Assembly: GCA_902635335.1 (NCBI GenBank)
Contig: CACPNO010000001.1
Span: forward strand, 1 to 64,000
Origin: an uncultured Pelagibacteraceae bacterium
GTDB taxonomy: Bacteria; Pseudomonadota; Alphaproteobacteria; Pelagibacterales; Pelagibacteraceae
Reading direction: 5' to 3'
Length of the DNA stretch: 64,000 nucleotides
The notes beneath the pieces are model-generated. The model had not been told where the DNA came from and did no database searches. It was given only the letters and a program-made list of their open reading frames with translations. Positions 30,991 through 41,619 of the stretch are shown here, one piece after another (the first letter of the stretch is position 1; each line of letters opens with the position of its first letter). A program made the translations under genes and the position numbers.

Positions 30991-31627
30991 ATTTTTTTTT
31001 TAAATTAGAAATTTTTACTACTGATGACTCATTACTTGTAAGACTTTTCATTACCTCTATATCAAATTTCCATTTTGTAGAGACTTCTTTTAAAATTTTT
31101 TTTCCACTCTTTCCTAAATACATGACTATATATTTAAAATTTTTAAAATTTTTTGTTGCTATATCAAAAATCACAGGTAAAGGTTTGAATGCTCTACAAA
31201 TTATTACATCTGTAACTAAATTTTTCTCATCAAATATATTTTTTTGGTAAACTTTTGCTTCCAATTTAAATTTTTCTATCATCTCCTTTAAAAAATTACT
31301 CTTATGATAGCTCTTCTCATAAAAAATTAGCTTAAAACCTTGCTTTTTAGATTTCATCAAAATACCTAAAACTATACTAGGAAGCCCTGCACCTGAGCCG
31401 AGATCAGTACATACCTTGATGTCATTTTTATTAATAAATTCAATGGTTTGTGCACTATCATAAATATGCCTTGTATTTATTGACTTTTCTGTAGTTGAAC
31501 TTATCAAATTTATTTTCTTGTTTGTGCTCAATATTGACTGAGAATATTCTTCTAACTCCTTAAGTGTTTCACGTGAAACATTTGGGATATAAATTTTATT
31601 AGTTTTTATTATTTTCGAATCAATCAA
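30983..31627 (-). CDS. rsmG: 16S rRNA (guanine527-N7)-methyltransferase
   Basis: [33 protein letters not shown]. Confidence 0.93.
31565..31580. promoter_or_regulatory. parS centromere site (perfect)
   Basis: TGTTTCACGTGAAACA, exact 16-bp palindrome, in the rsmG coding region (encodes VSRET). Confidence 0.93.
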
Positions 31628-34947: not shown

Positions 34948-35814
34948 TTGATGATAATTTGGTTAGCATCTTATCCTAAAAGTGGAAACACTTGGCTAAG
35001 ATTTTTTATAGTTTCTCTTCTTTTAAAAGAAAATAACGAAGTAAGCTTAAAAAACTTAGAAAGCATTAAACAATTTCCTACAAACTATCATTACAGAGAT
35101 TTTAGTATTTCTAAACCTGATCTTGGAAATCTTAATAAAATTTCTAAATATTGGGTGAGCGCTCAAAAAAAAATTAATTCTGATAATAAAATTAGATTTT
35201 TCAAAACACACAATGCTCTTTGTAAGTTGGACAATAATATTTTTACTAATGAAGAGAATACTCTAGGTACAATTCATATTGTGAGAGATCCAAGAAATGT
35301 TATTTCATCAGTAAATAATCATTTTCATCATGAGAGCCTTGAGGAGTCTAAAAAATTTATTCTTGATGAGAGAAAAGGAATATTCAATAAATCTAAAATT
35401 GAGCACAATAATATTTTTACGCTTCCCCAGGTTATAGGCTCATGGAAAACACATTATAATTCATGGAAACTAATAAGAAAAAATTATATTCTAGTTAAAT
35501 ATGAGGATTTAATAGAAAAACCAGAATTGGAATTTAAAAGAATTGCTCGTTATTTAGAACCTTTAATAAAATTAAAATTTACTGATGAGAATATTTCAAA
35601 AGCAATAGAATTAAGCAGTTTTGATAGACTTAAAAAAATTGAGGAAAAAGAGGGATTTGTTGAGAGTGTTAGAAATTTAAAAACTGGAAAAAAGGAAACT
35701 TTTTTTAATCTTGGACCAAAAAATGATTGGAAAAAAATTTTAGATAAAAATATTATAAAGGAAGTTAATAAAAAATTCGAACTAGAGATGAAGGAATTAG
35801 GTTATCTTAAATAA
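34948..35814 (+). CDS. sulfotransferase family protein (copy 1)
   Basis: WLASYPKSGNTWLRFF (5'-PSB loop), IHIVRDPRNVISS (3'-PB motif). Confidence 0.92.
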   Translation: MMIIWLASYPKSGNTWLRFFIVSLLLKENNEVSLKNLESIKQFPTNYHYRDFSISKPDLGNLNKISKYWVSAQKKINSDNKIRFFKTHNALCKLDNNIFTNEENTLGTIHIVRDPRNVISSVNNHFHHESLEESKKFILDERKGIFNKSKIEHNNIFTLPQVIGSWKTHYNSWKLIRKNYILVKYEDLIEKPELEFKRIARYLEPLIKLKFTDENISKAIELSSFDRLKKIEEKEGFVESVRNLKTGKKETFFNLGPKNDWKKILDKNIIKEVNKKFELEMKELGYLK

Positions 35815-35879: not shown

Positions 35880-36746
35880 ATGATCATTTGGTTATCTTCT
35901 TACCCCAAAAGTGGAAACACTTGGCTGAGATTTTTTATCATTTCTTTATTGATGGGTAAGAAAACTAAGTTAAATTTAAATCATCTTAAGGCTATAAATA
36001 CATACCCCCATGTAGATCAATTCAAAGATTTAATATCTAATTTTTTAGACCTTGGTGAAGTTGCAAAAAATTGGATCACTTCGCAAGAGAAAGTTAATTC
36101 AGATAAAGCATTGAGGTTTTTTAAAACACATAATATGCTTGGAAACTTAAATGGGTATCCTTTTACAAATAGTCAAAATACACTTGGCACTATCCACATA
36201 GTTAGAGATCCAAGGAATGTTGTTACATCTGTTAAAAATCATTACAATTTTTCAACTTTTGATAATGCACTAAAATTTATTTCTAATGAAAAACAAATTT
36301 TGACTTTGTCTGATGAAGAAAAAAAAAAATACAGGGAAAAAGAGATTAGGTATCCACTTCCTCAAATAATTGGATCCTGGGGATCACACTATAAATCATG
36401 GAAAAGAATGAAAACAAATTATCTTTTAGTAAAATATGAAGATCTTGTTGATAAACCAAACGAAGAATTTGCTAGGATTGCAATCTTTATTGAAAGTTTA
36501 ATTAAAGTAAATTTTAGTAATGACCAAATCAGCACTGCAATCGAATTAAGCTCATTTAATAAGTTAGAAAATATGGAGAAAAGGTATGGGTTTATTGAAA
36601 GTTCATTAAATAAAAAAGGTGAAAAAAATAAATTTTTTTATCTTGGACCAAAAAATAATTGGAAAAAAATTTTAGATAAAAATATTATAAAAGAAATTGA
36701 TAAAAAATTTAAATTAGAGATGAGAGAATTAGGTTATTTAAAATAA
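35880..36746 (+). CDS. sulfotransferase family protein (copy 2)
   Basis: WLSSYPKSGNTWLRFF, IHIVRDPRNVVTS; clearly similar to copy 1 along its length. Confidence 0.92.
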   Translation: MIIWLSSYPKSGNTWLRFFIISLLMGKKTKLNLNHLKAINTYPHVDQFKDLISNFLDLGEVAKNWITSQEKVNSDKALRFFKTHNMLGNLNGYPFTNSQNTLGTIHIVRDPRNVVTSVKNHYNFSTFDNALKFISNEKQILTLSDEEKKKYREKEIRYPLPQIIGSWGSHYKSWKRMKTNYLLVKYEDLVDKPNEEFARIAIFIESLIKVNFSNDQISTAIELSSFNKLENMEKRYGFIESSLNKKGEKNKFFYLGPKNNWKKILDKNIIKEIDKKFKLEMRELGYLK

Positions 36747-38019
36747 CTATGAAGGTTTATTCATTGAATTAAAAAATTCTGCGTTATTTTTAGTTGTCTT
36801 TAATTTAGAATTTATGAAGTCAATTGCATCCATAGATCCCATTGGGGCAATTATTCTTCTTAAAACATTCATTTTTTGTAGGTCGTTTTTGTCAAAAATT
36901 AGCTCTTCTCTTCTTGTTCCTGATTTAGTTATATCTATTGCTGGATAAATCCTCTTTTCAGAAATCTTTCTATCTAAAATAGTCTCACTGTTTCCAGTTC
37001 CTTTAAATTCCTCAAAGATAACTTCATCCATTCTACTTCCTGTATCAATTAAAGCTGTAGCAATAATAGTTAAAGAACCTCCTTCTTCAATGTTTCTTGC
37101 TGCGCCAAAAAATCTTTTGGGTCTTTGAAGAGCATTAGCATCTACACCACCAGTTAAAACTTTTCCTGAACTTGGTACAACAGCATTATAAGCTCTTCCT
37201 AATCTAGTGATTGAGTCTAATAAGATTACAACATCTTTTTTATGTTCTGTTAATCTTTTTGCTTTTTCTATAACCATTTCAGCAACAGCCACATGTCTTT
37301 GAGCAGGTTCATCAAAAGTAGAACTTATAACTTCACCTTTAACTGTTCTTTGCATATCGGTTACTTCCTCAGGTCTTTCATCTATAAGTAATACCATTAA
37401 ATAACATTCTGGATGATTGGCAGTTATAGAATTTGCTATACTTTGGAGTATCATGGTTTTTTCCAGCTTTGGGAGGTGATATAATCAAAGACCTTTGGCC
37501 TTTACCAATAGGACTAACTAAGTCAATTAGTCTTGGGGTTAAATCAGGTTTTTTTTCAATTTTATTTATTTCTACTTCCATTGCTAACTGTTTATTTGGA
37601 TATAAGGGTGTAAGGTTATCAAAAGCAATCTTATGCTTAAATTTATCGGGTTCTTCAAAGTTTATTTTGCTTACTTGAAGTAATGCAAAATATCTTTCTC
37701 CTTCTTTTGGAGATCTAATAGGACCTTCTACTGAATCACCAGTTCTTAAACCAAATCTTCTTATTTGACTTGGGCTTACATATATATCATCTGCTCCAGG
37801 TAAATAATTTGATTCCATTGCTCTAAGAAAGCCAAAACCATCTTGAAGGAGTTGTAAAACTCCACCACCAGTTATCTCTTCACCTTTTTCTGCAAGTTTT
37901 TTTAAAATAGCAAAATAAATTTCTTGCCGTCTTAATGTGCTAGCGTTTTCTATGCCAAGCTTTTCAGCATCAGTGATTAGCTTTTCAGAGCTTGTTTCTT
38001 TTAATTCTTGAATATTCAT
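36747..38019 (-). pseudogene. rho: transcription termination factor Rho, reading frame split by a 1-nt indel (ORFs 37378..38019 and 36747..37454)
   Basis: First ORF runs to [16 protein letters not shown] then goes out of frame; second ORF resumes [34 protein letters not shown]. Removing one A from the A6 run (37457-37462) gives PPKAGKTMILQS. Confidence 0.9.
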
Positions 38020-38516: not shown

Positions 38517-39509
38517 TTATAAATTCTTAGAAATAAGATGTTTGAATAAAGAAATATGATCTTCATTATCATTTAAGCAAGGTATCATTTCAAAGTTTTC
38601 ACCACCTGATTTGATAAAACTATCTTTCCCTTGGATGGATATTTCTTCTAAAGTCTCAACACAATCTGATGAAAAACCAGGACATATAACTAAAATATTT
38701 TTTTTTCCCTGTTTGGGCAAGGCTTCAAAAGTTTTGTCTGTATAAGGTTGAAGCCATTCTTGAGGACCAAATCTTGACTGAAATGTTGTCATAATTTTAA
38801 TGTTTGAATATTTTTCAGAAATTAGTCTAGTAGTTTTATGACAATAGCAATGATAAGGGTCACCCTTGTCAAAATATTTTTTTGGTATTCCGTGATATGA
38901 AGCTACTATTAAGTCTGGTTTCCAATTAATTTCGTTAATTTTTTTTTCAATACTATTTTTAATAGCATCTATATATAGAGGTTCAGACTCATAATGAGGA
39001 ATTATTTTTAAATTTGGTTGCCATCTCATTTTCATAAGAGTTCTATAAACCTCATCACATACAGTTGCAGTTGTTGCAGCAGCATATTGAGGATAGAGAG
39101 GTAGTATAATTAAATTTTCACAACCCTTTTCATGAAGTTCATTGATTTTACTTTTAATACTTGGATTACCGTATCTCATAGCAAAATCAACAATCAACTT
39201 TTCATTACCAATTTTCTCAGATAATTTATGAGCTTGGCTTTCTGTAAAAAACCTAAGTGGTGACATGTTCTTATCTTTCATCCATATTTCTTTGTAAGCT
39301 TTAGCAGTTTTTGATGGCCTGAATGTAAGTATAAATAAGTTAAGAATTACTTGCCAAATAAGTGGATTTACTTCAATAACTCTTCTATCTGACAAAAATT
39401 CCTTTAAATATTTCCTTATATCCAGCCAACTAGTGGAGTCAGGTGTCCCAAGATTTATAATTAAAACCCCTGTTTTGCCATAATTAACTTTTGGGTGGTC
39501 TGATTTCAT
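38517..39509 (-). CDS. hemH: ferrochelatase
   Basis: GVLIINLGTPDS; SYHGIPKKYFDKGDPYHCYC; CPGFSSDCVETLEEI. Confidence 0.97.
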   Translation of the reverse strand: MKSDHPKVNYGKTGVLIINLGTPDSTSWLDIRKYLKEFLSDRRVIEVNPLIWQVILNLFILTFRPSKTAKAYKEIWMKDKNMSPLRFFTESQAHKLSEKIGNEKLIVDFAMRYGNPSIKSKINELHEKGCENLIILPLYPQYAAATTATVCDEVYRTLMKMRWQPNLKIIPHYESEPLYIDAIKNSIEKKINEINWKPDLIVASYHGIPKKYFDKGDPYHCYCHKTTRLISEKYSNIKIMTTFQSRFGPQEWLQPYTDKTFEALPKQGKKNILVICPGFSSDCVETLEEISIQGKDSFIKSGGENFEMIPCLNDNEDHISLFKHLISKNL

Positions 39510-40507
39510 TTAAAGTTTCTTACGATTTTAATTAAATCTTCGACCATTTCAATTTTAGTTTCTGGTAAGATTCCATGTCCTAAATTAAATATGTATGGAT
39601 GATCCTTAAAAATATGAAGATATTTTTCCACTTCTTTTTTTAGAGTTTTCTTATCAGTTAATAATATTTTAGGGTCAAGCCCGCCTTGGATGGGAATTTT
39701 TATTTCTTTTACTATTTTTTCTGGATCAACATCATAATCTATATTTACCGCATCTGGTTTAACTATTTCGCAAAAATTTTTGTAATCTTTAATACCTCTT
39801 GGAAAACAAATTACAGGCACGCCTAATTGTTTAACATATTCTACAATATTTAATGTGGGTATATAAATATATTCTGGAATTTTATCATTTAATAATCCTG
39901 CCCAACTATCAAAGATTTGGATTACTTTAGCACCAGCCTCAACTTGATTTTTAATATGAACTTTTAAAAATTTTTCAATAATTCCTAAAAGTCTATTTAT
40001 TAGAAATTCATCTTTAAAGAATTCACCTGTTAGACCTTTTTTGGGTGATGATCTATTAATCATATATACAAGAATAGTCCACGGAGCTCCAACAAATCCT
40101 ATCATATCTCTACTATCCATCAAAGGATCCTTGGAAGTTTTGGAAATTGCTTTGTAAACTTTATAAACTCTTTCTGTAAAATTAATTTCATCAACATTTT
40201 TAATATTATCTAACTCTAGCTCTCCAAGCTTTGGCCCAAAATTTTTTTCAAATTCTACTTTCTGACCAAGTCCGTATGGTAACATCAAAATGTCAGAAAA
40301 TATGACTGCACCATCAAACCCAAATCTCTCTATAGGTTGAAGAGTTATCTCAGATGCTAAATCGCTATTTAAACAAAGTTTAATAAAATCTGTATTTTTT
40401 TTTCTTATGTCTCTAAATTCAGGTAAATATCTTCCTGCTTGTCTCATTAACCATATAGGATTGGTTTTAGTATCTTTATTTTTTATACAGTTTGTTATGA
40501 GACTCAT
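39506..40507 (-). CDS. hemE: uroporphyrinogen decarboxylase
   Basis: PIWLMRQAGRYLPEFR; GFVGAPWTIL; NLGHGILPET. Confidence 0.98.
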   Translation of the reverse strand: MSLITNCIKNKDTKTNPIWLMRQAGRYLPEFRDIRKKNTDFIKLCLNSDLASEITLQPIERFGFDGAVIFSDILMLPYGLGQKVEFEKNFGPKLGELELDNIKNVDEINFTERVYKVYKAISKTSKDPLMDSRDMIGFVGAPWTILVYMINRSSPKKGLTGEFFKDEFLINRLLGIIEKFLKVHIKNQVEAGAKVIQIFDSWAGLLNDKIPEYIYIPTLNIVEYVKQLGVPVICFPRGIKDYKNFCEIVKPDAVNIDYDVDPEKIVKEIKIPIQGGLDPKILLTDKKTLKKEVEKYLHIFKDHPYIFNLGHGILPETKIEMVEDLIKIVRNFK

Positions 40508-40791
40508 ATAAATAGATTTATATTATTTACTTTATTAGTATTATGAATTGTGGATAACGTAAATTATTCAATTATCACAGTTTTCTAACTTTTTATTAAT
40601 AATTTAGATCTCTAATAAGTAATATTTTACGGTGATTAATTAAGATTTCTCATATTTTATGCATATTATGTATAATTTTATTAACATTTTATAATTTAGC
40701 TAATTTAATGGAAAAAAAACTAACAATTATTATCCAGAGGTATAAATCTGAATTTTTCTTATTTTACTTATAGATTATAAACACTTTATAC
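40508..40791. other. probable chromosomal origin of replication (oriC)
   Basis: Unusually long AT-rich gap between hemE and ppsR with a perfect DnaA box (TGTGGATAA / TTATCCACA) at 40549-40557 and a one-mismatch box TTATCCAGA at 40730-40738; gene orientation largely flips here. Confidence 0.75.
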
Positions 40792-41619
40792 ATGAAAAAT
40801 TTATATCAAATATACTTAATATCAGATTCTACTGGTGAAACACTTGATAGAATATTTTTAGCATTGAAAGCACAATTTCCTAATTTCGAATACGAGACAA
40901 ACCATTTTTCTTTTACTCGAACTGAAAGTCAAACCCTAGCTATACTAAAACAGGCAAAAGGAGAAAAAAACTCAATTATTTTATATACAATTGTTAACAG
41001 CAAATTAGCAAAGTACCTTACAGAAAAAGCTTACGAAAGAAATATACCTTGTTTTGGAGTTCTTGGTGAATTGATTTTAAATTTTTCAAAAGTCTTAAAT
41101 CAAAAAGCCTCTCACCAACCAAGTGGACAACATATTCTAAATGAAGAATACTACGACAGAATTGAAGCTATTCAATTTACGATGAACCATGACGATGGTA
41201 ATCAAACTGATGATATAGAAAAATCAGATATTATTTTGTTAGGAGTAAGTAGAACAAGCAAAACACCAACTTCTATTTATCTAGCTAATAAAGGATTCAA
41301 AACTTCAAATATTCCACTAGTAAACAAAAATTCTGTACCATCTAAAGTTACTGAAAAAAATTTTAAACCGTGCGTTGTTGGTTTAGTTACAGAGGCAGAA
41401 AGATTATATGATTTAAGAAAAAATAGATTGAATTCACTGAAAGAAGATCAAAATAGTGAATATGTAAATATTGATAAAATTAAAGATGAACTAAATAGTT
41501 CTAGAAAATTATTCAAAGAGAATAATTGGCCAACTATAGATGTAACAAGAAAATCAGTTGAAGAAACTGCTGCGTCAGTAATAAAAATTTTTGAAATAAA
41601 GAACAAAAAAAATGCCTAG
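40792..41619 (+). CDS. PEP synthase / PPDK regulatory protein (DUF299 kinase/pyrophosphorylase)
   Basis: IYLISDSTGETLDRI; LLGVSRTSKTPTSIYLANKGFK. Confidence 0.95.
   Translation: MKNLYQIYLISDSTGETLDRIFLALKAQFPNFEYETNHFSFTRTESQTLAILKQAKGEKNSIILYTIVNSKLAKYLTEKAYERNIPCFGVLGELILNFSKVLNQKASHQPSGQHILNEEYYDRIEAIQFTMNHDDGNQTDDIEKSDIILLGVSRTSKTPTSIYLANKGFKTSNIPLVNKNSVPSKVTEKNFKPCVVGLVTEAERLYDLRKNRLNSLKEDQNSEYVNIDKIKDELNSSRKLFKENNWPTIDVTRKSVEETAASVIKIFEIKNKKNA

Follow-up and report, generated by a model that had tools for sequence, protein, structure and literature searches.

The intergenic region between hemE and ppsR (positions 40508-40791, assigned to neither strand) is very probably the chromosomal replication origin of the SAR11 bacterium from which this DNA comes, as supported by its boundary genes, the nucleotide skew of the complete relative G012, a conserved DnaA box, a trio-like element, a parS site, and the persistence of the region in genomes where ppsR or hemE is missing from its side. 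The window, by which we mean the whole 64-kb stretch analyzed, corresponds to the opening 64 kb of contig C1 from a source genome of 36 contigs that is 64% complete. The gap measures 284 bp, and the first-pass annotation had described it as strongly AT-rich and one of the longest non-coding gaps; it ranks second-longest in the window, and its AT content of 82.7%, versus 71.5% for the whole window, is above average, as in oriC regions of the hemE/ppsR type. Its edges are exact, with hemE starting at 40507 on the minus strand and ppsR at 40792 on the plus strand. The left boundary gene, hemE (39506-40507, minus; PF01208), encodes uroporphyrinogen decarboxylase, while the right boundary gene, ppsR (40792-41619, plus; PF03618, DUF299/COG1806), encodes a kinase-pyrophosphorylase whose closest public records all belong to Pelagibacteraceae (SAR11). 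As we take PF03618 to be the Pfam family formerly named DUF299, ppsR is the COG1806 gene. The Caulobacter origin is bounded by hemE and COG1806, a DUF299 protein (PMC1914354). The first-pass annotation had drawn the parallel to Caulobacter and Rickettsia through hemE alone; ppsR also matches the Caulobacter crescentus origin, Cori, and the location is thus flanked on both sides as in alphaproteobacterial origins of the hemE/ppsR type. A search for known RNAs in the gap returned a sub-threshold match only (E 0.83), and a 39-bp secondary match on contig C6 was set aside as low-complexity AT sequence.

Left of the gap lie parB, parA, rsmG, mnmG, and mnmE, and a perfect parS site, TGTTTCACGTGAAACA, is found at 31565-31580 on the plus strand, at the start of rsmG inside the parAB-rsmG-mnmG block and ~9 kb from the gap. 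The suggestion that genes are mostly on the minus strand to the left and mostly on the plus strand to the right holds in outline, the left-hand exceptions being two sulfotransferase-like genes (plus) and the right-hand ones hslUV and two small genes (minus). The sulfotransferase-like genes stand in tandem between rho and mnmE (34948-35814 and 35880-36746, plus strand), against the local strand, and share 54% identity; a similar gene occurs near the same place in 37 close relatives. In G012, a complete genome of the same genus (one contig, 1,343,202 bp), there is no space for such genes, the interval from mnmE to hemH having room for nothing but rho. The G012 gene intervening between rho and hemE (L212, G012:C1 1260011-1260943) is 30% identical to hemH of the window, versus 60-80% for its neighbours, and is possibly a different or replaced ferrochelatase. 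In the window itself, a frameshift near 37450-37470 breaks rho (36747-38019, minus) into two ORFs that overlap in different frames, and in 47 of 50 close relatives rho forms an unbroken single alignment. In a single-cell genome such as this, the likelier cause is an error of assembly or amplification rather than a genuine loss of Rho.

A perfect DnaA box had been claimed on the minus strand at 40549-40557, and TTATCCACA (top strand TGTGGATAA) is found exactly there. Aligning this predicted R1-like box across relatives, a check that the first-pass annotation had proposed, showed that 59 of 62 close relatives carry TTATYCACA without a mismatch; of the 30 same-genus species, only about half have an exact box. 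The gap as a whole holds one exact and five one-mismatch TTATNCACA sites, whereas 5,000 dinucleotide shuffles of it averaged 0.019 sites of the exact kind (P = 0.019) and 0.56 with one mismatch, and no shuffle had as many as five of the latter. The second box that had been proposed, TTATCCAGA at 40730-40738 on the plus strand, is present as a one-mismatch site but is not conserved: it falls where the gap varies most, with a mean column identity of 0.573, and is box-like in 6 of 62 close relatives. It should probably not be counted as a DnaA box, and a functional role for it is unlikely. The better candidate for a right-hand partner is TTATAAACA at 40775-40783 (plus), a predicted weak, R4-like box at the ppsR end that faces the first box, has a column identity of 0.989, and occurs in 57 of 61 close relatives. 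The form TTATNMACA is found at the ppsR end in 17 of 30 species, versus a shuffle mean of 0.13 that ignores species kinship.

The length of the gap is 261-285 bp in all 30 same-genus genomes that hold both genes, and its middle is not alignable across them. Over the 62 close relatives, mean column identity is 0.865 for the whole gap, 0.984 for the box at 40549-40557, 0.993 for positions 40533-40544, and 1.0 for the nine bases that follow the box, and the 47 bp proximal to ppsR are 94% conserved. As judged from these column identities, constraint acts on the left module and on the right-end box but not on the site at 40730.

The conserved positions 40533-40544 read TAT TAG TAT TAT on the plus strand, a DnaA-trio-like element of four 3'-NAN-5' trinucleotides that reads away from the box across a 4-nt spacer. 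By the published rule for a basal unwinding system (BUS), three or more NAN trinucleotides must lie no further than 16 bp from a DnaA box, 3'-GAT-5' being the preferred trio; of 2070 bacterial origins, 85% were predicted to have such a system (PMC8287927). The window, with four trios and a spacer of four, falls within this rule. The preferred TAG accounts for one of its four trios, the other three being TAT, and for all four at locus L217 of a second SAR11 family; the sequence at 40533-40544 suggests an AT-drifted DnaA-trio. Read from sequence alone, the element resembles the BUS of Bacillus subtilis in having a DnaA box, a 4-nt spacer, and four consecutive NAN trinucleotides of the right polarity, and differs from it in its trios, mostly TAT rather than TAG, and in the stretch between trio and box, where the GC patch has become AT-rich in this genus. 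Across the 30 species, bases left of the box show a period of three, with T in 88% at -19, -16, -13, -10, and -7 and A in 67% at the base that follows. In most members of the second family, a strict NAN run is not above shuffles, the middle A often being T, and a three-base T-N-G period is clear; the trio-phase shuffles, for the 30 species and the second family alike, ignore species relatedness. Among 54 boxes in G012, there is one trio-plus-box match, and it lies in the hemE/ppsR gap. As about one is expected from base composition, the case rests on conservation, not rarity. On the far side of the element, the AT-rich hemE-side flank (40508-40532) is the putative first duplex to melt, and the homologous place in the second family is TATATATA-rich. 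On the other side of the box lies the post-box element CGTAAATTA (40558-40566, plus), whose G two bases past the box does not vary among the 30 SAR11 species and aligns with the first G of CGGGG in other Alphaproteobacteria.

The comparison extends to hemE/ppsR gaps across the class, where a layout of TAG/TTG repeats, CCC, TGTGGATAA, and CGGGG recurs, as in GTTGTAGTTGTTGTTGATCCC-TGTGGATAA-CGGGG (L237) and GGTAGTGGTAGTAGTAGTACCC-TGTGGATAA-GGAGG (L240). In-phase TAG/TTG triplets beside TGTG average 1.58 over the class; the reverse strand gives 0.75, and 300 shuffles average 0.52 and never exceed 0.875. The layout is clear in about half of the 24 class gaps, and several gaps show none by the triplet test. 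Whether a single ancestral hemE-side origin core of this composition is common to all Alphaproteobacteria strikes us as evenly balanced; if so, SAR11 would carry its minimal form, of ~280 bp, with a single strong box, trios drifted towards AT, an invariant G just after the box, and no control by CtrA.

The main competing explanation is that the gap is a divergent promoter region only, serving hemE and ppsR, with the conserved blocks acting as promoter elements. The two genes are indeed divergent, the gap holds 10 promoter-like matches versus a shuffle mean of 5.0, and the conservation of the 47 bp next to ppsR probably means that promoter elements of ppsR overlap the region. However, the gap length and the hemE-side module are kept where ppsR is absent: in all 14 genomes of the second SAR11 family examined, hemE adjoins maf with no ppsR between them, the gap is 271-281 bp, and TAG/TTG repeats, CC, and TGTG are retained at an unchanged distance from hemE, an exact DnaA box being absent from most of these gaps. 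The module is likewise kept where hemE is elsewhere. G143 belongs to the same family but to another genus; its hemE is found at 718 kb, with rho taking the usual place of hemE beside ppsR. The rho/ppsR gap there reads TTAGTTTTGTTATTAGGTCA-TGTTTATAA-TGGGG, with trio-like repeats, a degenerate box, and TGGGG, and contains no exact DnaA box. The GC3 minimum of this genome, for which skew was computed without the last 11 kb of the contig, is at 139,531, beside ppsR at 140,516-141,328; among noisier measures, the raw GC minimum is at 159,876 and the AT3 and GC4 extremes are elsewhere. As the module outlasts the loss or displacement of either partner gene, an oriC is favoured over a plain divergent promoter, which would also leave the skew switch, the two exact boxes of the G012 gap, and the class-wide trio-box layout unexplained; we therefore consider a promoter-only role highly improbable. 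In G143, hemE and hemH have moved together (718-720 kb) to near the skew maximum, in the terminus region. The G143 hemE is 34% identical over only part of its length, and it is possible that it was replaced by a horizontally acquired copy.

The window's own genome being too fragmented, complete relatives served for the skew measurements; raw GC skew inside the 64-kb window was uninformative at such a scale. In G012, where the hemE/ppsR gap is at 1,261,949-1,262,209, the three clearest orientation-corrected extremes, at 1,260,428 (AT at fourfold sites), 1,270,412 (GC3), and 1,272,653 (AT3), lie 2-11 kb from it, in keeping with the first-pass prediction of a cumulative skew minimum at the gap, while GC at fourfold sites, a weak measure, disagrees and has its extreme elsewhere. 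A skew switch point near the gap is thus found in G012 by three measures and in G143 by GC3, with some weaker measures disagreeing. As the fits have wide intervals, they support the neighbourhood and not an exact base. The raw cumulative GC skew of G012 has a flat minimum at 1.18-1.32 Mb that encloses the gap, with its lowest point at 1,231,116 (31 kb off) and its maximum at 616,051; a search for dif with an E. coli-like consensus gave no convincing match in this genome. Of the 169 intergenic regions of G012 that measure 100 bp or more, the hemE/ppsR gap is also the only one with two exact TTATNCACA boxes, and DnaA boxes unmatched by other intergenic regions are expected of a hemE/ppsR-type origin. 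The breadth of the raw minimum, a plateau of ~140 kb, could accommodate a true origin elsewhere in the same origin-proximal block, such as upstream of dnaA or near parS, with the gap merely close, but this is the least probable reading, as dnaA is 62 kb from the gap in G012 with no exact box in its 347-bp upstream region, no second intergenic region there has two exact boxes, and the boundary genes of Cori flank the hemE/ppsR gap itself.

Read as an origin, and with a predicted unwinding module that is itself of a known kind, the gap would join the known alphaproteobacterial class of origins flanked by hemE and ppsR. It shares with Cori of C. crescentus and the Rickettsia prowazekii origin the same two boundary genes, DnaA boxes, and AT richness (PMC1914354), and differs from Cori in its length (~280 bp versus >400 bp) and in having one exact box rather than five. 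In E. coli oriC, an R1 box stands in the left half with an R4 box facing it. Similarly, the TGTGGATAAC box of the window sits at the edge of the predicted melting region with a facing box at the opposite end, although the flanking genes differ and far fewer boxes are recognisable between the ends. In Caulobacter, the origin is blocked by CtrA. The window gap contains no CtrA site of the form TTAA-N7-TTAA and so lacks this mark of a CtrA-gated Cori, and a search for the exact IHF sequence WATCAANNNNTTR, which leaves degenerate sites outside its reach, found none there. CtrA sites are also missing from some accepted Ehrlichia and Wolbachia origins (PMC1914354), and such sites are therefore not defining of oriC. 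A search for ctrA in G012 yielded four candidates with an OmpR-type C-terminal domain, one of them PhoB and none at the CtrA cut-off, in agreement with the reported lack of ctrA in Pelagibacter (PMC2877005). The SAR11 oriC is apparently a Caulobacter-position origin without CtrA gating. Over the gaps of the 30 same-genus genomes, TTAA-N7-TTAA is nevertheless enriched (20 versus 7.4 in shuffles) though no CtrA was found, an excess that may merely reflect TTAACA-type weak DnaA sites, and GANTC methylation sites are scarce (2 versus 9.9 in shuffles). GcrA is present in three of four genomes tested. DnaA is missing from the window's own genome because the assembly is incomplete, and a real loss was rejected: most relatives carry DnaA, and that of G012 scores above the DnaA equivalog cut-off. 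Domain IV of SAR11 DnaA carries the RPRQ, SLPEIG, and RDHTT segments, which presumably read TTATCCACA.

On this basis, DnaA would bind the R1-like box at 40549-40557 and form an oligomer extending left along the top strand of the trio element at 40533-40544, upon which the AT-rich hemE-side flank would melt and let in the DnaB helicase. Weaker TTAWNAACA-type sites and the R4-like box that faces the first box from 40775-40783 may complete the DnaA complex. Two forks would then depart, one through hemE-rho-parAB and the other through ppsR-maf-aroE-dnaQ, with ParB on the nearby parS segregating the new origins. As CtrA is absent, initiation would be timed without it.

Earlier SAR11 work set the terminus or origin by coverage or GC skew (PMC9589681; PMC9516812). 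The papers searched contained no account of the SAR11 origin at the present level of detail, and DoriC or another origin database may hold an entry for it. Few groups of cells in the ocean are as abundant as SAR11, and SAR11 growth is estimated from origin-to-terminus read depth, for which an exact and conserved origin locus would provide a fixed anchor, in fragmented genomes included. The SAR11 gap would also offer a small, CtrA-free origin of the Caulobacter type in which to ask what the core requirements are, and a testable origin core for the class as a whole.
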